Assembly (NCBI RefSeq): GCF_000828515.1
Contig: NZ_AP010872.1
Location: 221,001-285,000 of the forward strand
Length of the DNA stretch: 64,000 nucleotides
Direction of reading: 5' to 3'
Source of the DNA: Candidatus Ishikawaella capsulata Mpkobe
GTDB lineage: Bacteria; Pseudomonadota; Gammaproteobacteria; Enterobacterales; Enterobacteriaceae
In this document: in pieces, positions 36,751 through 56,529 of the stretch
How the letters are laid out: the number at the start of each line of letters is the position of its first letter
Position numbering within the stretch: the first letter of the stretch is position 1
Made by a program: the position numbers and the translations under genes
Notes under the pieces: generated by a model
Databases searched by the model: none
What the model was told of the DNA's origin: nothing
What the model saw: the letters and a program-made list of their open reading frames with translations, nothing else

Positions 36751-37599
36751 ATGCTAATTGTTGAATCTATCTGTGTATTGCGTTTTGTAATAAAACATTG
36801 GCATAGGAAAAACCAAAATGTTGCCTTAGTCCCTACTATGGGTAGTATACATGAGGGTCATTTAAGTCTGGTAGCAGCAGCAAGAAAGCATGCAGATATC
36901 GTTATAGTATCTATATTTATTAATCCTATGCAATTTGATAAAAATGAAGATTTTTATATTTATCCACGTAGTTTAGAAGAAGATTATATTAAACTCAAAA
37001 AAAACAATGTTGATTTAGTATTTTCTCCCTCAATATCTAGTATTTATCCAGAAGGAATATCAAATCATACATATGTTGAAGTACCCAAATATTCTAGAAT
37101 ACTAGAAGGTGTAAACCGTCCTAAACATTTTCGTGGAGTTACCACTTTAATTAGCAAATTGTTTAATTTTATTAAACCAAATATTGCTTATTTTGGAGAG
37201 AAAGACTTTCAACAAGTATTTATTGTTAAAAAATTAGTTGTTGATATGGGTTATGATATCAATATCATTAGTGTTCCAACCTTAAGAACAAAGGATGGTC
37301 TTGCACTAAGCTCCCGTAATAAGTATTTAACAACTGAAGAAAAAAAATTGGCTATTATGCTCAATAAAACCATAAACATAATGGCCACACAATTAAAAGA
37401 ACGCAAATGGTGCATAGAAAAAATTATTTCAGAAGGTGAAATTCTATTGAAAAAATGCGGTTTTAAAATAGATATTTTGACAATTTGTCATCCAATCTCT
37501 TTAGATATATTAAAAGAACACGATGATTGTGCAGTTATTATAGCTGCAGCTTGGCTTGGTAAAACTAGATTAATTGATAATAAAACCCTATATTTATAA
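36751..37599 (+). CDS. panC: Pantoate-beta-alanine ligase
   Basis: Joins pantoate and beta-alanine to give pantothenate (vitamin B5). The protein has 282 residues (E. coli 283). ATP-binding HxGH is seen as HEGH in PTMGSIHEGHLSL, MQFDKNEDF follows, and KDGLALSSRNKYL near 185 holds the KMSKS-like loop. No panD is seen, so beta-alanine must come from elsewhere. The stop lies in a 30-bp palindrome. A decayed second copy of its 3' half lies at 39880-40312. Confidence 0.97.
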   Translation: MLIVESICVLRFVIKHWHRKNQNVALVPTMGSIHEGHLSLVAAARKHADIVIVSIFINPMQFDKNEDFYIYPRSLEEDYIKLKKNNVDLVFSPSISSIYPEGISNHTYVEVPKYSRILEGVNRPKHFRGVTTLISKLFNFIKPNIAYFGEKDFQQVFIVKKLVVDMGYDINIISVPTLRTKDGLALSSRNKYLTTEEKKLAIMLNKTINIMATQLKERKWCIEKIISEGEILLKKCGFKIDILTICHPISLDILKEHDDCAVIIAAAWLGKTRLIDNKTLYL

Positions 37600-37611
37600 A
37601 TATAGGGTTTT
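37582..37611 (+). terminator. 30-bp perfect palindrome over the panC stop
   Basis: AAAACCCTATATTTA is followed directly by its reverse complement, then TATAAATTTTT. The CCC/GGG core and following T-rich stretch suit an intrinsic terminator whose stem includes the panC stop codon. Confidence 0.6.
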
Positions 37612-37688
37612 ATAAATTTTTGATGACTTAACTAATTAATTAATAGTCTTTATTTAAACTAAATGATATTATATAAACAATTAAAAAA

Positions 37689-37715
37689 AGATATTCTCTT
37701 ATAAAGAGAATATCT
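37689..37715. terminator. 12-bp stem-loop between panC and xthA
   Basis: AGATATTCTCTT, loop ATA, AAGAGAATATCT: a perfect stem in the 200-bp spacer where yadH-yadG-hpt appear to have been deleted. Either a terminator or a deletion scar. Confidence 0.4.
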
Positions 37716-37800
37716 TCTATATCTTATAGAATAGCTAGTAAATAAATATATTTAAATATGCATGTTAAAATTAATATTTTCATGAAAAAGGATTTACAGC

Positions 37801-38613
37801 ATGAAAGTAATTTCGTTTAATATTAATGGAATAAGAGCTAGATTGCATCAGCTAGAAGCTTTAGTTAGGTTACATAACCCAGATATTATAGGATTACAAG
37901 AAACAAAAGTACATGATGATTTTTTTCCCAGAGAAGAAATAAATACATTAGGCTACAAAACCTTTTTTTATGGACAAAAAAAAGATTATGGCGTTGCTAT
38001 TCTATGTAAACATTCTCCTATTAAAATATATTATGGATTTCCTGATGAAAATATTGAAATATCACAAAAAAGAATCATAATTACTGAATTCATCAGTCCC
38101 ATTGGGAACATTACTATAATTAATGGTTATTTTCCACAAGGAAATAATCGCAATGATAAAATAAAATTTGCAGCTAAAGAAAAATTTTTTCATGATTTAC
38201 AAAGTTATTTAGAAACAAAATTAACCGCAAATACTCCAATATTAATTATTGGTGATATAAATATTAGTGCAACTGATAATGATATTGGTATTGGTGAAAC
38301 ACAATACAAAAAGTGGTTAAAAATAGGGAAATGTTCTTTCCTTCCTGAAGAACGATTTTGGATTAAAAAATTACTTGATTGGGGATTAATAGATATATGG
38401 CGTTTTCATAATCCAAATGTAAAGAATAGATTCTCTTGGTTTGATTATAAAGGAAACAATTTTGTTAATAACAGAGGATTACGTATTGATTCACTTTTAG
38501 TAAGCAGTATACTTGCTAAGTGTTGTGTGGAGACAGGTATTGATTATAAGATACGGAGCATGTATAAACCATCAGATCATGCTCCTATATGGGCCAAATT
38601 TGATTTGGATTAA
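37801..38613 (+). CDS. xthA: Exonuclease III (AP endonuclease)
   Basis: Main abasic-site endonuclease and 3' repair exonuclease. The protein has 270 residues (E. coli 268). Catalytic Glu34 is in [10 protein letters not shown], the Asp/Asn pair in [11 protein letters not shown], and the C-terminal Asp-His in [11 protein letters not shown]. Intact here, while a dead copy of its 5' half lies at 42911-43330. In E. coli xthA is in the sppA-gapA neighbourhood, so this copy is the displaced one. Confidence 0.97.
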
Positions 38614-38678
38614 CTATTTTAAATAATCTGTATTAATTATGATAGAGTATTATTTTAAATTAATGTGGAGTATCTTCA

Positions 38679-39872
38679 ATGGGTATTTTATCGAAAATAA
38701 TTCATAATATTTTGACTGAGAAGTTAAAAACTATGAATATTATTAAAAAATTTACGATTAATAAATCAGTAATAATTTTAACAGCTTTTCTTATAGTATT
38801 CGGCTGGATTCCTACAGAAAACAACAGTTACAATAAATATATGGTTTTTATTACTAAATCAAGAGAAACATCAAAAATAAATAACAAACTTATGAATGAA
38901 TTTTTATCAAATGTCCACAAATATACTCATGACACTTATATAAGTCTCAAACGTTCTCCTACTCATTCTGAGAAGGATCGAGATTATATAAATAATTTTT
39001 TTGATAACAGTTTTATACATACACATGGTAAAATTATTTCACCATCGAATCATCGCATTCCATATATAAAAAAAAGTACAGCAGCATTAGTTGTAAATCC
39101 TGCTGAAAATACTGTAAAGACTGCTGAAAATACTGTAAATCCTGCTGAAAATACTGTAAATCCTGCTGAAAATACTGTAAAGACTGCTGAAAATACTGTA
39201 AATCCTGCTGAAAATACTGTAAATCCTGCTGAAAATACTGTAAATCCTGCTGAAAATACTGTAAATCCTGCTGAAAATACTGTAAATCCTGCTGAAAATA
39301 CTGTAAATCCTGCTGAAAATACTGTAAATCCTGCTGAAAATACTGTAAATCCTGCTGAAAATACTGTAAATCCTGCTGAAAATACTGTAAAGACTGCTGA
39401 AAATACTGTAAAGACTGCTGAAAATACTGTAAAGACTGCTGAAAATACTGTAAAGACTGCTGAAAATACTGTAAAGACTGCTGAAAATACTGTAAAGACT
39501 GCTGAAAATACTGTTGTAAAGACTGAGGCTAAAAAACTGCTAATAGATAGTGAAGAATTTGCTAATAAAATTGTTAAAAATTTTGATCCAAATAAAGCAT
39601 TCATTCAGTTAGATGCACTAAATCGTTACTTTTTTACTGATGGAAAAAGTCAAAATGATACTAATACTAATCATCAGAACTATGCTAATCGCATTCTGAA
39701 GCCCTTATTTGATAAAGCGTTTATACCGTTCAATGTGGATCAAAACCATAACTATACTTTCTTGCTATTCAAAAAAATACAGGTTTCATTAAGTAGGCAT
39801 ATAGGTTTAAATAATGTAACTGATTACCGAATAAACATAAATTGGTCTACACCTTCAGCTCCAAACAAATAA
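38679..39872 (+). CDS. Chimeric membrane-anchored protein with 20 heptapeptide repeats
   Basis: Uncharacterised, 397 residues. The first about 65 residues and the upstream 60 bp match the start of sppA (43421 on): IINK.., WIPTENNSYN against WIPIENHSQD, then FITKSRE against ITTKPRA. This part includes one membrane helix (about 30-45), giving a likely N-in anchor with the rest outside the inner membrane. Residues about 65-138 are not recognised. Residues 140-279 are 20 exact heptads, 12 NPAENTV and 8 KTAENTV. The last 118 residues (EAKKLLIDSEEFANKIVKNF to STPSAPNK) match nothing I know; they look folded, with normal hydrophobic content. The SppA protease core and catalytic Lys and Ser are absent. 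GGAG precedes the ATG. The frame is open throughout in DNA where dead genes break quickly, so I infer it is expressed. It is bounded by xthA and the panC relic. Confidence 0.7.
   Translation: MGILSKIIHNILTEKLKTMNIIKKFTINKSVIILTAFLIVFGWIPTENNSYNKYMVFITKSRETSKINNKLMNEFLSNVHKYTHDTYISLKRSPTHSEKDRDYINNFFDNSFIHTHGKIISPSNHRIPYIKKSTAALVVNPAENTVKTAENTVNPAENTVNPAENTVKTAENTVNPAENTVNPAENTVNPAENTVNPAENTVNPAENTVNPAENTVNPAENTVNPAENTVNPAENTVKTAENTVKTAENTVKTAENTVKTAENTVKTAENTVKTAENTVVKTEAKKLLIDSEEFANKIVKNFDPNKAFIQLDALNRYFFTDGKSQNDTNTNHQNYANRILKPLFDKAFIPFNVDQNHNYTFLLFKKIQVSLSRHIGLNNVTDYRININWSTPSAPNK
39096..39515 (+). repeat. 20 x 21 bp in-frame coding minisatellite
   Basis: Twenty 21-bp units, each a codon pair followed by GCTGAAAATACTGTA. 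The pair is AATCCT in 12 units and AAGACT in 8; order P T PP T P(x9) T(x6). Apart from these two bases I see no difference, silent or otherwise, between units. A degenerate unit (GTAAAGACTGAGGCT) follows at 39516. Confidence 0.97.
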
Positions 39873-39879
39873 ATCTATA

Positions 39880-40312
39880 TAAAACTCTTAAACATTTTTG
39901 TGAAACTTACCACTTTGATTAGCAAATTAAAATATTACTTAATTCAGGGAAAAAGAATTTTTAAAAGTATTAATTTACAAAATTAATCATTGATATTTCA
40001 ATATTTAATTAACATAACTTGTTTTTATAGTAAATTATTGTAATAAATATTTAACAGTTGAGGAAAAAATTGGCTATATATACTTTATCCTCAATAAAAT
40101 CATAAAAATGATAGCCAAATAATTAAAATAACGATAGTGTATAGAAAAATTTTTTCGGAATATGAAATTCTATTAAAATAATGCGGTTTTAAAATTTATT
40201 TTTTTGATAATTTGCGATGCAATATATTTACAAATAGCACGTTTTTTTGCAATACGCAATTATTATAAGCTTGATAAAACCAGATTAATTGATAAAAAAG
40301 TAACTTTCGTCA
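39880..40312 (+). pseudogene. panC: Decayed second copy of the panC 3' half
   Basis: Nucleotide similarity to panC from about 37113 to 37590 with many substitutions, stops and indels. Examples are TTACCACTTTGATTAGCAAA (39910 region) against TTACCACTTTAATTAGCAAA, TTGGCTAT with TCAATAAAA (about 40070-40100), and AAACCAGATTAATTGATAA near the end against AAACTAGATTAATTGATAA. It stands between the repeat gene and yadH, the native position of panC relative to yadH in E. coli. Confidence 0.88.
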
Positions 40313-40320
40313 TAAGTTAC

Positions 40321-41091
40321 TTAACTAATTAATCCTTTCCCTTTATTTATTAGAATCAAAGATTGCATATATAAAAATATTATAGAAAAACTAATAATAA
40401 GTATAGTTACCTGTAAAGGTATATCTTTATAACCTATATATCCCCATCTAAAGCCATTTATTATATAAATAATTGGATTAAATTTAGAAACAAATTGCCA
40501 AAAATGAGATAAGGACTTTATAGGATAAAATATACCACCCAAATAAATCATTGGAGTTAATACAAAAGTAGGAATAATACTAATATCATCAAAATTACGT
40601 GCTAATATTCCATTTAATAGACCAGCTAAAGAAAAAAGAATAGCAGTTAATACTATTGTAACAATTGATATAGACAAATTATATATTTGATAAGAAGAAA
40701 TGGCCAACCCAACTAATGAAACTAAAGCGCCTATCAATATACCCCGTAATACTCCACCACCGACATAACCAATAATAATCATATTAGTAGATACAGGAGA
40801 AACCAATAATTCCTCAATGCTACGTTGAAATTTAGAACTAAAAAAAGATGAAGCTACATTAGAATAAGAATTAGTAATTACACATAGCATGATTAATCCT
40901 GGTAAAATAAATTGCATATATGAATATCCATTTATATCTCCTATGCGCCGTCCCATTATATTACCAAATATAAAAAAATATAATATAATAGTGATTATGG
41001 GAGGTAAAATAGTTTGTATCCAAATACGCATAAATCTATTTATTTCTTTATACAAAATACTTCTTAAAGCAATCCAATACCAACACATCAT
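40321..41091 (-). CDS. yadH: ABC-2 type transporter permease YadH
   Basis: Membrane subunit of an exporter of unknown substrate. The 256 residues match E. coli YadH in length, with six predicted membrane helices (for example 35-55, 75-95, 115-140, 150-175, 180-200 and 230-250) and the ABC-2 segment EELLVSPVSTNMIIIGYVGGG. The start overlaps the end of yadG by 4 bp, so the pair is cotranscribed and coupled. Its 3' tail appears to survive as a remnant at about 37627. Confidence 0.94.
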   Translation of the reverse strand: MMCWYWIALRSILYKEINRFMRIWIQTILPPIITIILYFFIFGNIMGRRIGDINGYSYMQFILPGLIMLCVITNSYSNVASSFFSSKFQRSIEELLVSPVSTNMIIIGYVGGGVLRGILIGALVSLVGLAISSYQIYNLSISIVTIVLTAILFSLAGLLNGILARNFDDISIIPTFVLTPMIYLGGIFYPIKSLSHFWQFVSKFNPIIYIINGFRWGYIGYKDIPLQVTILIISFSIIFLYMQSLILINKGKGLIS

Positions 41092-42011
41092 AATAATTTT
41101 TCTCTCTTTTGTACTAAGCTGACAAAAAATTCTTCTAATCTACTAGATTTATTACGCATGCTCAACACTTCTACTCCCTGCATACTTAAATATTTAAATA
41201 AACGATTTAAGCCTTGTTCACGTGTTACTTCTACTTCTATCGTAGTAGAATCAATTAAGCGATATCTAAACCCTGGAAGATATGGCATTGGTATTTTTTT
41301 TGTAAAATCCAGTATAAAAGTTTCAGACTGGAGTTGCTTAAGCAAGGATTTTATTGATGTATTTTTTATTATCTGTCCATCTCTCATTATTCCAATATGG
41401 CGACACAGCATTTCTGCTTCTTCTATATAATGCGTGGTAAGAATAATGGTAGTTCCTTTTTTATTTAGTGCTTTTAAAAATGTCCACATAGAACGACGTA
41501 GTTCAACATCTACACCAGCAGTAGGTTCATCTAAGATTAGTAATTTAGGATGATGTATAAGAGCTCGAGCAATCATTAAACGTCTTTTCATTCCACCTGA
41601 TAACAAACGAGATTGCTCATGTCGTTTAGACCATAAATCCAGCTGAGATAAATATTTTTCTGCGCGATAAAATGCTGTTTTCCTTCCTATACCATAATAT
41701 CCAGCCTGAGTGGTTATTACTTGTTCCACTGTTTCAAATTGACTAAAATTAAATTCCTGCGGAACCACTCCTATTTGCATTTTAACATTAAAAGTATCTA
41801 ATTCTATATCAGAACCAAATATCTTGATTTTTCCAGATGTTTTCCTTATTAAGGAACTTATAATTCCGATAGTAGTTGATTTTCCCGCTCCATTCTTTCC
41901 TAATAAAGAATAAAAGTCACCTATTTCTACTTTAAGATCTACTCCTTTGAGAGCCACAATTCCATTAGAATAGATCTTGTTTAAATTATGAATTTCAACA
42001 GCATATTTCAT
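41088..42011 (-). CDS. yadG: ABC transporter ATP-binding protein YadG
   Basis: ATPase partner of YadH. The protein has 307 residues (E. coli 308). Walker A is in GKNGAGKSTT near 39-48, the signature LSGGMKRRLMIARAL, Walker B LLILDEPTAGVD, and the switch His in LTTHYIEEAE. Substrate unknown; retained exporters of this kind often act on lipids or drugs, but that is only family knowledge. Confidence 0.95.
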   Translation of the reverse strand: MKYAVEIHNLNKIYSNGIVALKGVDLKVEIGDFYSLLGKNGAGKSTTIGIISSLIRKTSGKIKIFGSDIELDTFNVKMQIGVVPQEFNFSQFETVEQVITTQAGYYGIGRKTAFYRAEKYLSQLDLWSKRHEQSRLLSGGMKRRLMIARALIHHPKLLILDEPTAGVDVELRRSMWTFLKALNKKGTTIILTTHYIEEAEMLCRHIGIMRDGQIIKNTSIKSLLKQLQSETFILDFTKKIPMPYLPGFRYRLIDSTTIEVEVTREQGLNRLFKYLSMQGVEVLSMRNKSSRLEEFFVSLVQKREKLL

Positions 42012-42098
42012 ATATTATTAAATACCACATATTAAACAATCTATTGAGATTTATATATGGTTCTCATATTATTAGACGTAATTATCAGTATGATATTT

Positions 42099-42635
42099 TT
42101 ATTCATTTATCATCACGACTTTACCAATATAAGGTAAATAGCGATAATTTTGAGCATAATCTAATCCATAACCTACTACAAATACATCTGGAATAGAAAA
42201 ACCTACAAATTTAACAGCTATATTAACTTTTCTATGTTGTGGTTTACTCAATAGAGCGCAAATAGATAATGATTTTGGCTGTCTTAAAAATAAAATTTCT
42301 CTTACTTTATTTAAAGTATTGCCTGAATCTATAATATCTTCTACAAGAAGCACATCTTTACCATAAATATTTTCGTCTAAATCTTTGAGAATTTTGACAT
42401 CATGAGAAGCATACATATGATTATCGTAACTAGATGTAGTCATGAAATCGATCTCATGTTCTATCTTAATATTGCGACACAAATCCGCCATAAAGATAAA
42501 GGAACCACGCAGTAAACCGATTAATACCATCTTATTATTATTATTTTGATAATGCTCTGCAATCTCCTTGCCTAATTCAATAACACGAGCATTAAGTTTA
42601 TTTCTATCAATTAAAACTTCAACGATATGTTTCAC
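42099..42635 (-). CDS. hpt: Hypoxanthine phosphoribosyltransferase
   Basis: Purine salvage: hypoxanthine (and weakly guanine) plus PRPP to the nucleotide. The 178 residues equal E. coli Hpt. The PRPP-binding motif is [17 protein letters not shown], with [15 protein letters not shown] and the end region [20 protein letters not shown]. It suggests import of purine bases from the host. Confidence 0.96.
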
Positions 42636-42910
42636 AAGTGAAATATCTCACAGTAGAATTTTTAAAATAAAATTAATTTTTTAACTTGATCATGTATATA
42701 TAAAGATATACGAAACTTTATCCAGATACATACTATCTGATTATAAATTATGTTAGTTTTAATTAAAAATATTAATTATTATATTTATAAGTAATATATA
42801 ATCTTATTATGTGTAATTTATGATAGAATACTAATTCTATTAAATAGAAAAATCATTTTTGATATAAAATACATATCCATGTCAAATTTATTTTTAAGCT
42901 TAATATTTAC
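42636..42910. other. Spacer between hpt and the xthA relic
   Basis: AT-rich, with no gene. Its last 60 bp resemble the sequence just upstream of intact xthA (37745-37800), consistent with a shared duplicated origin. Confidence 0.45.
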
Positions 42911-43330
42911 ATGAAGGTGATGTATTTTAATATCAATGAGTTAAGAGTTATATTGCGTTAGATTGAAACTTTAGTTACAAAATAATCTAGATATTATCAG
43001 ATTATAAGAAACAAAAGTACATGATATGTTTCCTAGAGAAGAACTAAATAAATTAATATATGAAATATATTATAATAAATAAGTGATCTAACTTTTATTT
43101 ATCAAAATACTCTTATTAGAATAAATAGTAAATTTGCTGATCAAGATACTAAAAAATAACAAAAAAGAATCATTTTTGCTCAATTAAGTTCTATTAAGGA
43201 AATAACTGTAATTACTAGTTAATTACCACAAATAAATAATAACAATGATGATAAAAGAAAATTTCTAGTTAAATCAAAAATTTTTATAATTTCTAAAATA
43301 ATTTAGAAAATTAAATTTAATTAGTGATTT
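42911..43330 (+). pseudogene. xthA: Decayed second copy of the xthA 5' part
   Basis: The ATG at 42911 starts a clear but ruined copy of xthA: ATGAAGGTGATGTATTTTAA against ATGAAAGTAATTTCGTTTAA, then AGAAACAAAAGTACATGAT at 43009-43027, identical to xthA, and the CCTAGAGAAGAA segment. Stops appear within 20 codons and the 3' half is deleted. It sits directly upstream of sppA, the xthA-sppA-gapA order of E. coli, so this is probably the ancestral position. Confidence 0.92.
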
Positions 43331-43420
43331 ATATAATATATTTTTGATTATAGAAGAAATAATATTATTACTGAAGTATATTAATTATGATAGAGTAAAT
43401 ATCAGTGTGGAGCATCTCTA

Positions 43421-45196
43421 ATGTATATTTTATGGAGAATGATTTATAATGTTTATATTTACATGGTTAACATTGTTAATGCAATAGCAAAATTTATAAT
43501 TAATAAAAAAATAACTATTTTAATAGTTATTTTTATTGTATCCTTTTGGATACCCATAGAAAACCATAGCCAGGATTCGCTTATAATTACTACTAAACCA
43601 AGAGCATTAGAACTAAATATAAACGGCCCTATTGTGGATGAAGATCCTTATGACATCCGCATATACCAGCAAAAAGTCTATCCTTCCTTTAATATGAACT
43701 CTATGTATACAATAGCTAATATAATTAATAAGGCAAAGTCTGATTCAACAATTAGTTGTATTCTAATGAATCTACATAATTTTACAGGCGCTGATCAAAC
43801 TTGTTTAGAATATGTTGGCAAATATCTCAAAGATTTTAGCAGTTGTAAACCTATTTATGTATATTCATGTAATTATGATCAAGAAAGATATTATCTGGCT
43901 AGTTATGCTACACAAATTAACTTAGAAAGGTTCTCAGAGATTGATCTACATGGATTAACAGAATCTCATATTTATTTCAATCGTCTACTGAGAATATTTA
44001 GATTAGTTCCTTATATCTTTCGAGTAGGGATTTATAAATCTGCTACAGAACCTTTTACCCGCGATAATATGTCTAAAGAGGATAAAATTGCCTCTTTATC
44101 TGTGATTCAGCAACGTTGGAACAGATTTATAGAGACTATTGCAAATAATAGACATACTTCGGTGCAAGATATCTTTCCTACGAACATAAGAAATAAGTTG
44201 AATGAATTAAAAATGCTCGGAGATTCATCACAATATGCACTTAATCATCATATGGTAGATAATATTTGTTCTGAATATGAATTCAAGGAAAATTTAAAAT
44301 CTATAGTTGGTATGGATGAATCAAATCAACATTTGAACATTATCAATATGTTTGATTATATTACACCGGAAAATGTATCAGTAGAAGATAATAATACTAA
44401 TATTGATATTATATCAATTAATTTTCTAATTAATAGAGGAGCTAAATTAGATAATATTTGTCATAAAATGAACGAACTTATATCGAAAAAAAATATTAAG
44501 GTTGTCATTCTTTGTATGAATAGTCCAGGAGGTGACTTTTTTAGTTCACTAAAAATTAGAGAATTAGTAATTTTATTGAAAAAATCAGGAAAAAAAATAG
44601 TAGTATCCATGGGAAACGCAGCTACTTCCGGAGCTTATCTGATTGCTAGTGCTGCAGATTATATTATAGCAAATCCTATTTCAATGACTGGATCAATAGG
44701 TGCTTTTAATATAATAAATAATTTTTCAAAAATTCTTAATTTTTTAGGTATACATAGAGATGGAGTTTCTATTTCACCATTACATAGCATTGCACCTGAA
44801 GAACCATTAACTCCAGAACAAAAAGAAATGCTAGAAATTATTCTGGAAAATAATTATAAGCATTTTGTACAAATGATAGCTGAATCACGTAATAAAACAT
44901 TTGATCAAATTAATAATATTGCTCAAGGACGTATATGGACTGGAAAAGATGCAATGGATAATGGTTTAATCGATTCTTTAGGAGATTTGGATGATGCTAT
45001 TGCAAAAGCAATAGAATTAGGAAATATAACAGATTCGCACGTAGCATGGTGTGTAAATTATAATACTTCAAATATTTTCCAACCCAGAAGAGTAGTATAT
45101 GATAATAGTGGTGAGTCTAATGATTTTGCTAGGTCGTTATTGGATACTTTTAAATCGATAAGTAATTCATTGAATTTGGTGTCTAATAGTGATTAG
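43421..45196 (+). CDS. sppA: Signal peptide peptidase A
   Basis: Inner-membrane serine protease that degrades cleaved signal peptides in the periplasm. The protein has 591 residues (E. coli 618). One N-terminal membrane helix lies at about 30-45. The catalytic Lys206 is in FRVGIYKSATEPF and Ser403 in GNAATSGAYLIAS; both halves of the tandem-fold subunit are present (NSPGGDFF, GSIGAFNI, GRIWTGKDAMDNGLIDSLGD). GGAG precedes the ATG at 43421. Its first 60 codons have a diverged duplicate at 38679. Confidence 0.96.
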   Translation: MYILWRMIYNVYIYMVNIVNAIAKFIINKKITILIVIFIVSFWIPIENHSQDSLIITTKPRALELNINGPIVDEDPYDIRIYQQKVYPSFNMNSMYTIANIINKAKSDSTISCILMNLHNFTGADQTCLEYVGKYLKDFSSCKPIYVYSCNYDQERYYLASYATQINLERFSEIDLHGLTESHIYFNRLLRIFRLVPYIFRVGIYKSATEPFTRDNMSKEDKIASLSVIQQRWNRFIETIANNRHTSVQDIFPTNIRNKLNELKMLGDSSQYALNHHMVDNICSEYEFKENLKSIVGMDESNQHLNIINMFDYITPENVSVEDNNTNIDIISINFLINRGAKLDNICHKMNELISKKNIKVVILCMNSPGGDFFSSLKIRELVILLKKSGKKIVVSMGNAATSGAYLIASAADYIIANPISMTGSIGAFNIINNFSKILNFLGIHRDGVSISPLHSIAPEEPLTPEQKEMLEIILENNYKHFVQMIAESRNKTFDQINNIAQGRIWTGKDAMDNGLIDSLGDLDDAIAKAIELGNITDSHVAWCVNYNTSNIFQPRRVVYDNSGESNDFARSLLDTFKSISNSLNLVSNSD

Positions 45197-53442: not shown

Positions 53443-54177
53443 TATTTATTTCTCCATATTACATTATTCATATTTTCTGTTTAAAGAAAAATCTGTTTGC
53501 AGATGACAAATAAGGTATTTTAATATATATACTATTATTAATAGTATATATTAATGAACATTATCTATGAATGATGTAAATAGGTATATCAAGATATTAT
53601 GTTGATAACATCAAATAAATTATTTATATCAACAAGAAATTTAAGTTTCAATAAGATTGAAAAAATCATTTCAATATTGCTTTCATTAATTTCAACTATT
53701 ATATCTAATATTTAATTATATAGCAAATTTTTTACATGATATAAATATTTCTGTTTGTTTTTTTTAATGCCTCATATTATTGAGCAACTAAAATAGTTAA
53801 ATTTTGATATATTAATAAATCAAACACTCATAATACAAATACAGTATAATATAATATTATGTATCACCTAATTTTCCTATTATATGAATTTGTTTAACGA
53901 GTTGACGCTATCTTATAGTTTTTAAATGCATATAATATGTAACATAATTATTATGTTGTTGAATGGTAATATCATTATCTACAGCTATTCTTTACTACTA
54001 TCTAATATTACTTTATCATCACTAAAGCTATCACAAGAACATCCATAGCATAGATATATGCATTGATGAGCATATATTTTGTATTATTAAAATGAACTGC
54101 ACTAAATATGAATATACTTAAGTAAGGTAAAATAACTCCTGAATGGTAATTTTATACTGAAAGTATGATAATACTAA
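53443..54177. other. AT-rich spacer upstream of zwf
   Basis: No readable gene. In E. coli lpxM and mepM lie between this region and znuA; no fragment of either is recognised. A perfect 12-bp stem with loop ATT stands at 53525-53551, about 85 bp before the zwf start, and could affect its leader or be chance AT symmetry. Confidence 0.45.
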
Positions 54178-54945
54178 TTATTTGTTCAAACAACTTATAT
54201 ATTGATTAGATAAATTTGAAAGGAATATAAAATAACTTTTTTTTGTTAAATCTATACCCATTAATGGATCAAGCCCTCCTTTCTGCATATTGGTTCTACA
54301 TGAAATGTGTATTTATTATAACAGTAATAAATTGTGGTTAGGTAAAAATACAAATAACTTTATTCTCATTCTTATATTATGAAACAGGTGTTTTATACTT
54401 GGTTGGATACTAGGATTTATACTTAAAAATTCCAAATTGAACAAATGATAATATTTTTAAAATAGCTATAAGCATCATGAAAAATAAAATAACCTTTATT
54501 TCTTACAGTAGTTAAATTATTTAAAAGATTTTTTCTAATTGTATTGCAGATAAATTAAGATTATTATCGAGTGTGTTCTTGCTTTGTAACATTATATTAA
54601 GCAATTTTTTCATGAATCATGATTGCTATTTATGCAGATAACTATAAATACATATTATATGTATTGTAGCACATATTATGTTGATCAATATATTTAGTAT
54701 TTTGAATTATCATTGTTGTATTTTTTATAGTTAATTAGTTCCATTTTTTTGAATAAGGTAATGTTCTAGTAAGTGTAATCATAACATGTTCCATTTCTGG
54801 ACATACCCAGATTACCAAATCTGCATCTTTGATATCCTTTAAATATAAAAAATATAGGCTATAGTGATTTTCAAAAGCGCCATCTAATAAATTTCTACTG
54901 GTAAAACATGAGCAATAGCCCAAACTTAGTGTTTTTTATAAAAGT
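54178..54945 (-). pseudogene. znuA: znuA relic (periplasmic zinc-binding protein)
   Basis: The C-terminal end is clear: LDPLMGIDLTKKSYFIFLSN...NQYISCLNK and stop (54267-54178), against [20 protein letters not shown] in E. coli. The N-terminal part is open for 62 codons (54923-54735): LLDGAFENHYSLY, DADLVIWVCPEMEHVM. The middle, including the His-rich loop, is lost or scrambled, with multiple stops. Position and strand relative to znuC and ruvB follow E. coli. Confidence 0.92.
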
Positions 54946-55059
54946 AATTATAGAAGCAGAAGAAAATGTAGCAAATATATTCTATATTACTAGATAAATT
55001 TTTATATAATATATATTTATAACATATTAACTTATGTATTCGTATTTTATTAAATATAA

Positions 55060-55732
55060 TTTTTTATATTAAAAATGTTTCTGTTAAATTTGAAAAACTA
55101 ACACTTTCAAATATCAATTTGTCTCTTTTTCCTTTCCAGGAAAGATATTGACACTGTTAGGTCTAAACGCTGCGGGAAAATCCACACTTACGAGTAATTT
55201 TAGGATTAATAAATACCATATAAAGAACTGTTTAGCAAAAAAAATAAGTATGGTTTATGTCACAAAAAAGTTACATGTTAACTCAATATTATCTATAATA
55301 TGTAAAAAGTTTATTATTTTATAATGTGGAATAATATCTTATTTAAAATTGGCTATTTTACAACAGGTGGAAGTAAGTCATTTATGGCACTCTCTACGAA
55401 AACTATCTGGAGAGAAATTCAATGCATATTGTTAGCTCGTGTTTTATTAAAAACCCTCGATTGTTAGTTCTTGATGAACATCATCAAGGAATAGATATTA
55501 ATAATCAAATTTTGTTTTCTGATTTTATAGATCAATTATGTCAGGAGTGAAATTGTAGAGTATTATTCATTTCATATTATCTTTATTTAGTGATAGCAAA
55601 AACTGATTATATACTATGTTTGAATAAATATATCTGTTGCTGTAGTTATCTCAACATCCCGCATTTGTAGTTATGTTTGGTAATTTTTTTGCAAAACAGT
55701 TAGCTATTTATATTCATAATAATGATTATTAA
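55060..55732 (+). pseudogene. znuC: znuC relic (zinc importer ATPase)
   Basis: Frames broken by stops and indels read NVSVKFEKLTLSNINLSL, KILTLLGLNAAGKSTLTSNF (Walker A altered from GPNGAGKST), KLSGE, LLVLDEHHQGIDINNQ-like pieces, and the end VVMFGNFFAKQLAIYIHNND and stop, against [20 protein letters not shown] in E. coli. Divergent from the znuA relic. Confidence 0.92.
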
Positions 55733-55777
55733 ACTCAAAATATATTTTGCTGATTAATTTTAATATAAGATTAAATA

Positions 55778-56497
55778 ATGGCAGCATTATTACCGAGTTG
55801 GTTGTGTAGTATATTATTAACATTAGCTACTAGTTCCCTTGGTTCTTTTATTATTTGGAGACGCATCTCCTGGAGATACTTAGCTCATGCTTCATTATTA
55901 AGAGTTTACTTAGGATTATTTTTCATATAAATACTTTTTATACCATTATTGCAGTGATGATTTTTCTATCATTCGAATAATTTGCTTACAAAACCGTTTA
56001 TATTTAGCAATGGATAAATTATCCGGTATAATAGCACATTAGTAATTTTTCATTGAGATTAGTAATAATTATTTTAATTTTTAGAATGCGTATGGATTTA
56101 ATAAACTACTTATTCTGAGACATATTAGCTATAGTTCCACCAGATATTTTATTTATTGCTACTAAACTAGTATTGATAGTTATTATTTGCTGTCAATGAA
56201 AAAAGTTACTTTCAATGACCATAAATTCTGATTTAACTCAAATAAATGGAATGAATATTCAAAATATGCAAATTATTTTAGTGTGACTGTGTTAACAATT
56301 GGTTTTACTATGAAATTTATGGAAGCCCTAATTGCATTCCTAAGGTTACAGCTTATATTTTTGCACGATCTTATGAGCAAATAGCAAGATTAGCGATTTT
56401 ATTTTGTATAATAGCTATTATTAATACAGGTATTGCTCTATCTGTAGATTATAATACACCTAATAGTCCTTTAGTTTTTCTAGTTCTGCTTTTATAG
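55778..56497 (+). pseudogene. znuB: znuB relic (zinc importer permease)
   Basis: ATG at 55778 starts MAALLPSWLCSILLTLATSS, then LGSFIIWRR, LAHASLLRVYLGLFFI and stop, matching ZnuB (FPGWLAGIMLA..., GSFVVWRRMS, LAHASLLGVAFGLLL). Later fragments run to VDYNTPNSPLVFLVLLL and stop at 56497, with stops and shifts between. All three importer genes are thus dead. Confidence 0.92.
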
Positions 56498-56529
56498 TTT
56501 TTGTCTAAGTATTATAACACTTAATTATG

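Follow-up and report, generated by a model that had tools for sequence, protein, structure and literature searches.

A putative chimeric gene at a tandem-duplication junction of Candidatus Ishikawaella capsulata, with an sppA-derived start, a perfect heptad array and an orphan tail

Introduction

How could a long open frame of mixed origin arise, and stay open among decayed neighbours, in the shrinking genome of an obligate symbiont? This question is raised by a locus of Candidatus Ishikawaella capsulata, the gut symbiont of the stinkbug Megacopta punctatissima (PMC7218078), whose genome is listed in Table 1 of the same source as a chromosome of 745,590 bp (AP010872.1) and one plasmid. In the assembly used here the chromosome has this same length, and the whole genome comprises 754,729 bp in two contigs. 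We analysed a stretch of 64,000 nucleotides of the chromosome, called the window, to which all coordinates refer. A sequence-only reading of the window had pointed out a frame which starts like sppA, continues with heptad repeats and ends in a part without a recognised family, and had taken it for a half-dead sppA copy converted into a new gene. Obligate symbionts are usually described as gene losers only; if the chimera is a true gene, it may represent a gene gained while the genome was shrinking. In the literature searched, no title or abstract opening mentions this gene, Nikoh et al. 2011 and Brown et al. 2014 being outside the scope of that search.

Results

Structure of the chimeric frame

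The chimeric gene is one open frame of 397 codons with an ATG start on the plus strand (38679-39872), as the sequence-only reading had described it. It is preceded by a leader copied from sppA (38631-38678, plus strand; source 43379-43420), which contains a TATGAT and, ahead of the ATG, a GTGGAG resembling a ribosome-binding site. Codons 1-88 (38679-38942) form a diverged sppA start with one hydrophobic segment, codons 89-138 (38943-39092) show codon-like periodicity and have no relative found, the repeat array follows (39093-39512), and the C-terminal tail, an orphan in our searches, comprises codons 279-397 and the stop (39513-39872); all lie on the plus strand.

The array consists of 20 tandem in-frame units of 21 bp, 12 VNPAENT and 8 VKTAENT, with a TRF score of 734; the final six units are all of the KT type. 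The units are identical within each type and carry no silent variation, as had been claimed, so the array is recent or homogenised. An 84-base piece of it has no other match anywhere in the symbiont's own genome. Each of the other two forward frames has 20 stops in the 20 units while the gene frame is open, and since 21 is divisible by three, the frame is preserved when units are gained or lost. What seem to be half-units flank the array on both sides (STAALV before, VVKTEAKK after, as read from the sequence) and may be worn older repeat copies. An antisense ORF of 184 codons spans the array (39050-39604, minus strand) and was taken as a by-product of the repeat.

Another array is found at 1096-1711: a unit of 77 bp, with no other strong match in the genome, stands in eight perfect copies, one after the other, at the 3′ end of what we take to be an MscS-like ORF and before a presumably mdh-like ORF. 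For this array, as for the 21-bp one, a recent origin or homogenisation must be assumed. According to PMC5037837, the US and Japanese symbiont genomes differ by 41 substitutions and six indels, the US genome being 46 bp longer. Either array could be among those six indels.

Concerning the predicted structure, AlphaFold2 without an alignment gives most of the array as helical (block-mean pLDDT about 60-87) and the rest poorly; the mean pLDDT of this whole-protein single-sequence model is 49. A coiled coil may form in the KT block, because its valines and alanines are three and four residues apart, whereas one continuous helix through the array is disfavoured by the proline in every NP unit (12 of the 20 units). 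The length of the 140 repeat residues would be about 21 nm in a helix and 43 nm in an extended stalk.

Origin of the leader and start

BLASTP of residues 1-87 of the chimera against SppA gives 30 of 88 identical positions (E 6e-10). At the DNA level, the leader and 48 codons are identical to sppA at 135 of 186 bases, codons 1-48 reach a z of about 10 against dinucleotide shuffles, and the leader contains an exact match of 19 bases (38631-38649 = 43379-43397). The proposal that the leader and start are a diverged copy of sppA is borne out by these matches, although the derived part is nearer 88 codons at the protein level than the about 65 first put forward. Codons 49-138 give no signal against sppA DNA (z -0.4), so that the assignment of the stretch 49-87 to sppA rests on the protein alignment. 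The leader by itself reaches z 3.4-3.7 against sppA, yet z 2.9 (3 of 200 shuffles) against the reverse strand of yadHG-hpt as well; its homology is therefore founded on its place and on the exact match of 19 bases. When the own genome is searched with codons 1-146, the gene itself and sppA are the only matches. Also, the residues WIP.EN.S are common to the chimera and the own-genome SppA and absent from the six free-living SppA sequences aligned. Among the other genomes searched with codons 1-138, three of 59 give a match at E 0.1 or better, and the best (genome G030, E 1.3e-4) has three TAA codons inside; the part of its locus examined is the first 300 bases.

The best 19-residue window of the hydrophobic segment begins at residue 26, and this segment is expected to be an inner-membrane signal anchor of the SppA type. 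Anchors of this type put the C-terminal side in the periplasm, as established for E. coli SppA. The leader may act as the promoter of the chimeric gene; a promoter consensus scan (53 sites against 43.0 expected) was uninformative and did not single it out.

The duplicated block

The chimeric gene lies between two sets of related genes. Before it are an intact panC (36751-37599) and xthA (37801-38613), both on the plus strand, which make up copy A together with the sppA start. Directly after it is a panC relic, the 3′ half of the gene (39880-40299, plus strand), adjoined by yadH, yadG and hpt (40321-42635, minus strand), which occur in copy B only and have the order and orientation seen in E. 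coli. Copy B continues with a relic of the 5′ part of xthA (42870-43320, plus strand), with stops and frameshifts, and ends with an intact, full sppA (43421-45196, plus strand), the donor of the chimera's 5′ end. Both relics are 75-84% identical to their parents where aligned. The decay of duplicated neighbours had been noticed before; these relics belong to the same duplication as the chimera. Based on its gene content, the region is best read as a tandem duplication of a panC..xthA-sppA block with reciprocal loss, and the chimera sits at the junction, where copy A ends and copy B begins.

The gene order in relatives locates the new joint. The pcnB, folK, panB, panC, yadH, yadG and hpt genes match their E. 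coli namesakes with 51-67% identity and keep the E. coli order and relative strands. The xthA and sppA of the window match the E. coli genes with 62% and 37% identity; in E. coli the two have one direction, and xthA precedes sppA there and in other enterobacteria. Within the flank examined, 18 of 55 sppA loci contain xthA and 34 of 55 contain gapA; in Pantoea, xthA is found 3.1 kb before sppA and gapA after it. The ORF after the window's sppA is GapA-like, with 71-75% identical matches in the compared sppA loci. Since these orders are those of the relatives, both outer flanks are old, on the left of copy A and on the right of copy B. The joint that is new thus runs from the sppA start to the panC relic, and the chimera fills it. 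The region 36751-45196 is a small worked example of how gene order in a symbiont may change via duplication and loss. Elsewhere in the window, about 3 kb (53443-56529) contain no ORF of at least 200 codons and perhaps hold further decayed genes.

The middle and the orphan tail

The claim that the last 118 residues lack a family holds for the 119-residue tail, which has no relative in profile and genome searches. No Pfam family was found over its cut-off (best E 0.13), no family match in NCBIfam or PHROGs and no significant match among PDB sequences (best E 1.2). Sets of 59 relatives, 391 family, 393 order and 368 class genomes, which are nested and overlapping, contain no convincing relative for this single-sequence query, with which a distant relative could be missed. 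Weak matches were taken as chance: six besides the own genome in the 59-genome set (E 0.014-0.089), and one in the family-genome set (E 0.0057, 28% identity) with a TGA inside. A phage, plasmid or viral source was also considered and set aside, as nothing was confirmed in genome or viral contigs and no match was found in plasmids or phages. The tail model, of low confidence (single-sequence, pLDDT 55), has helices followed by three strands; Foldseek against PDB and BFVD gives no match to it at E 0.001 or better. By VIA-align its best hit is a kinetochore chain (Z 4.8, 68 residues), within 1 of unrelated chains. According to PMC7218078, Ishikawaella has 12 species-specific orthogroups, 11 of them of unknown function.

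A DNA origin of codons 49-138 and the tail was sought in sppA and its neighbours, and no signal was found in panB, panC, xthA, sppA or yadHG-hpt (tail against sppA z 0.7), or in the regions downstream of sppA and upstream of hpt. The best DNA score of the tail is that with the sppA downstream region (z 1.5), reached by 14 of 200 shuffles. Codons 89-138 and the tail, translated in six frames and compared with the masked window and the loci L018, L019 and L063, give a best E of 0.07, and the middle and tail have no SppA profile match. The idea of a converted sppA copy therefore stands for the start and leader, and finds no support for the middle and tail, which bear no sppA trace. Relics of the same block still align to their parents while these parts carry no sppA signal, and a fusion at the junction thus fits better than conversion.

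Evidence for a kept frame

Calculated from the window's single-base composition, the chance that the 257 non-repeat codons stay open is (1-0.0811)^257 = 3.7e-10. Of the 3,296 open runs in the non-gene space, the longest have 193, 191, 163, 155 and 146 codons; the gap list behind them was trimmed by hand, and some of these runs may be real genes. Therefore the stretches of 138 and 119 codons are not outliers singly.

The two decayed sister relics provide a built-in clock beside the frame that stayed open. With a lax gap setting, frameshifting gaps are found at 21 of 403 aligned bases in the panC relic and 17 of 402 in the xthA relic (38/805 together), and stops at 12 of 237 intact aligned codons of both; with a strict setting, the gaps are 4/188 and 3/396 (7/584 together) and the stops 10/185. 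The sppA-derived part contains no frameshifts and no stops, over 194 bases and 62 codons (lax) or 139 bases and 46 codons (strict). Presuming one age for this part and the two relics, it should contain 9.2 (lax) or 1.7 (strict) frameshifts and 3.1 or 2.5 stops; the probability of finding none is 1.1e-4 (lax) or 0.19 (strict) in the case of frameshifts, and 0.04 or 0.08 in that of stops.

Codons 89-138 show base periodicity (p 0.0014), and so does the tail (p 0.0004), compared with a chi-square p below 0.05 in one of six control stretches (the xthA relic, p 0.0042) and a GC1-GC3 difference in two of the six. In codons 1-88, GC1 and GC3 do not differ (p 0.58). The non-repeat parts have a coding score of -0.028, against a mean of 0.182 and a 5th percentile of -0.004 for in-frame gene pieces; it lies within the range of out-of-frame pieces (95th percentile 0.091), so that it is no proof by itself. 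Among the six frames, the coding frame has the highest score for the tail, for codons 1-48 and for the joined non-repeat parts, whereas in codons 49-138 one reverse frame scores slightly higher (-0.076 against -0.100). Differences to sppA are spread evenly over the codon positions (13, 17 and 14 of 48), as in a relic, and the sppA-derived part is 69-70% identical to sppA, below the relics.

In the one genome of the genus that was available, the frame looks kept while its exact sequence appears to drift like a relic. Judged on the DNA, the chimera is taken, on the balance of probability, as a real, loosely constrained gene, and use of its frame as a protein is likely.

Discussion

The explanation that we prefer, and to which we give about an even chance, is that the leader and anchor of sppA were fused to other sequence at a duplication junction and that the product was kept as a periplasmic stalk protein. 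From the observed sequence, relics, fusion and open frame we infer expression, topology and function as follows. A tandem duplication of panC..xthA-sppA would have left a truncated sppA beside a truncated panC, and at this junction the sppA leader and signal anchor would have been joined in frame to DNA that has no counterpart in our searches. The predicted product would have a short cytoplasmic tail and one inner-membrane helix, and then a periplasmic part made of the 140-residue repeat stalk and the 119-residue terminal domain. Its preferred role is that of a passive tether, whose stalk (about 21 nm if helical) may keep this domain close to the cell wall or the outer membrane, and gain or loss of 21-bp units would alter its reach with the frame intact. 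The more far-reaching version, in which an envelope protein was born in a host-restricted, shrinking genome, the junction giving a promoter and anchor to non-genic or unknown DNA and the stalk growing afterwards, is doubtful though conceivable.

The frame could also be a pseudogene that is still open, that is, functionless junction DNA with an amplified 21-bp unit. Even spread of differences over codon positions, the weak coding score and the lack of a homologue in our searches all fit this, and the 77-bp array shows that a perfect array can lie almost wholly outside ORFs of at least 60 codons. Against it are the very small chance of so long an open frame, the frameshifts and stops of relics from the same block, the periodicity in parts that bear no sppA trace, and an array unit that is a multiple of three and lies in the sole open forward frame; we regard this explanation as rather unlikely. 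An old, fast-evolving envelope gene of the lineage, with only its 5′ end swapped for that of sppA, would account for the periodicity of the tail and middle and for the worn half-units at both array edges, which suggest an older repeat. Against it, the tail has no convincing relative in the nested, overlapping sets of genomes searched, and no DNA trace was found near the second block copy. It is slightly less probable still; it overlaps with the preferred explanation, and the two are not exclusive. Remodelling of a complete, decaying sppA copy by mutation into the whole gene agrees with the origin of its start and leader, but codons 49-138 and the tail have neither a DNA trace nor an SppA profile match, six-frame comparison of codons 89-138 and the tail yields nothing, and the relics of the same block can still be aligned to their parents, which makes remodelling improbable.

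Comparison with known systems

The TolA protein of E. coli has the same plan of an inner-membrane anchor, a repetitive stalk and a globular end; its units are 15-mers, whereas those of the chimera are of 21 bp. PMC3477136 reports in-frame TolA repeat numbers of 8 to 16 among 234 E. coli isolates, with altered stress tolerance, and contractions at 6.9e-5. If the chimeric protein is made, its array would be a natural periplasmic stalk of possibly variable length, comparable to these repeats. The likeness raises the question of whether the chimera is a replacement force transducer of the TolA/TonB type, with which it shares the three-part plan of membrane helix, long stalk and terminal domain of about 100-120 residues. 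PMC12204202 names an S-H-L-S motif within the membrane helix of TolA/TonB. In the chimera the full motif is absent in either spacing, and a partial one, S5-x3-H9-x6-L16 (38691-38726), has three of four positions and precedes the membrane helix. Its chance is 0.003 in shuffles of residues 1-60, which speaks for a transducer, and the own-genome SppA has W, Y and V at these positions; lying before the helix, the partial motif is probably chance.

The TolA C-terminal domain (PF06519) has no match in the chimera or in the genome at E 10, and TolQ/ExbB (PF01618) has one match in the genome, of 10.7 bits against a cut-off of 22.9; the E. coli controls were positive for both. The first 100 residues of the ORF with this weak match give 15.2 bits, and the ORF, which lies beside an ABC ATPase, looks like an ABC-transporter permease. 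In the fold comparison, which bears on a C-terminal domain of TolA/TonB type, the low-confidence tail model (pLDDT 55) gave no noteworthy match. The sole OmpA-domain match of the genome at E 1 (positions 1501-1704 of L017 in the own genome) is interrupted by a TAA and shares bases with an ORF of 91 codons. With no TolA domain, no TolQ/ExbB above the cut-off and a stop in the only OmpA-domain match, a force transducer is very improbable, and a replacement of TolA itself was rejected, there being neither a TolA domain nor a motor found in the genome.

The alanine-zipper (Lpp/OprI-like) lipoproteins resemble the array in their heptads with valine and alanine three and four residues apart. PF11839 matches the chimera with 34 bits (cut-off 23.1), the sole one of 18 Pfam rows above its own cut-off, and probably reflects repeat composition, because many coiled-coil models also match weakly; the NCBIfam Ala_zip_lipo model gives 36.2, below its cut-off of 43. 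Unlike these proteins, the chimera has no lipobox and no cysteine in its 397 residues, and a lipoprotein identity was therefore rejected. With SppA (signal peptide peptidase, protease IV, family S49) it shares the leader, the first about 88 residues and the anchor; it differs in having no S49 domain and no SppA profile match, PF01343 being present in the window's sppA and absent from the chimera.

Chimeric genes at tandem-duplication junctions, formed with duplication and reciprocal loss, are a known phenomenon. By title, the literature on such duplication junctions concerns mostly mitochondrial genomes, among the matches listed. The locus resembles these cases in its junction position and in the reciprocal decay of both copies, and differs in belonging to a reduced bacterial symbiont genome and in carrying an array of repeats, along with orphan sequence, where the copies join. 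The novelty is the route of assembly, not a new molecular system.
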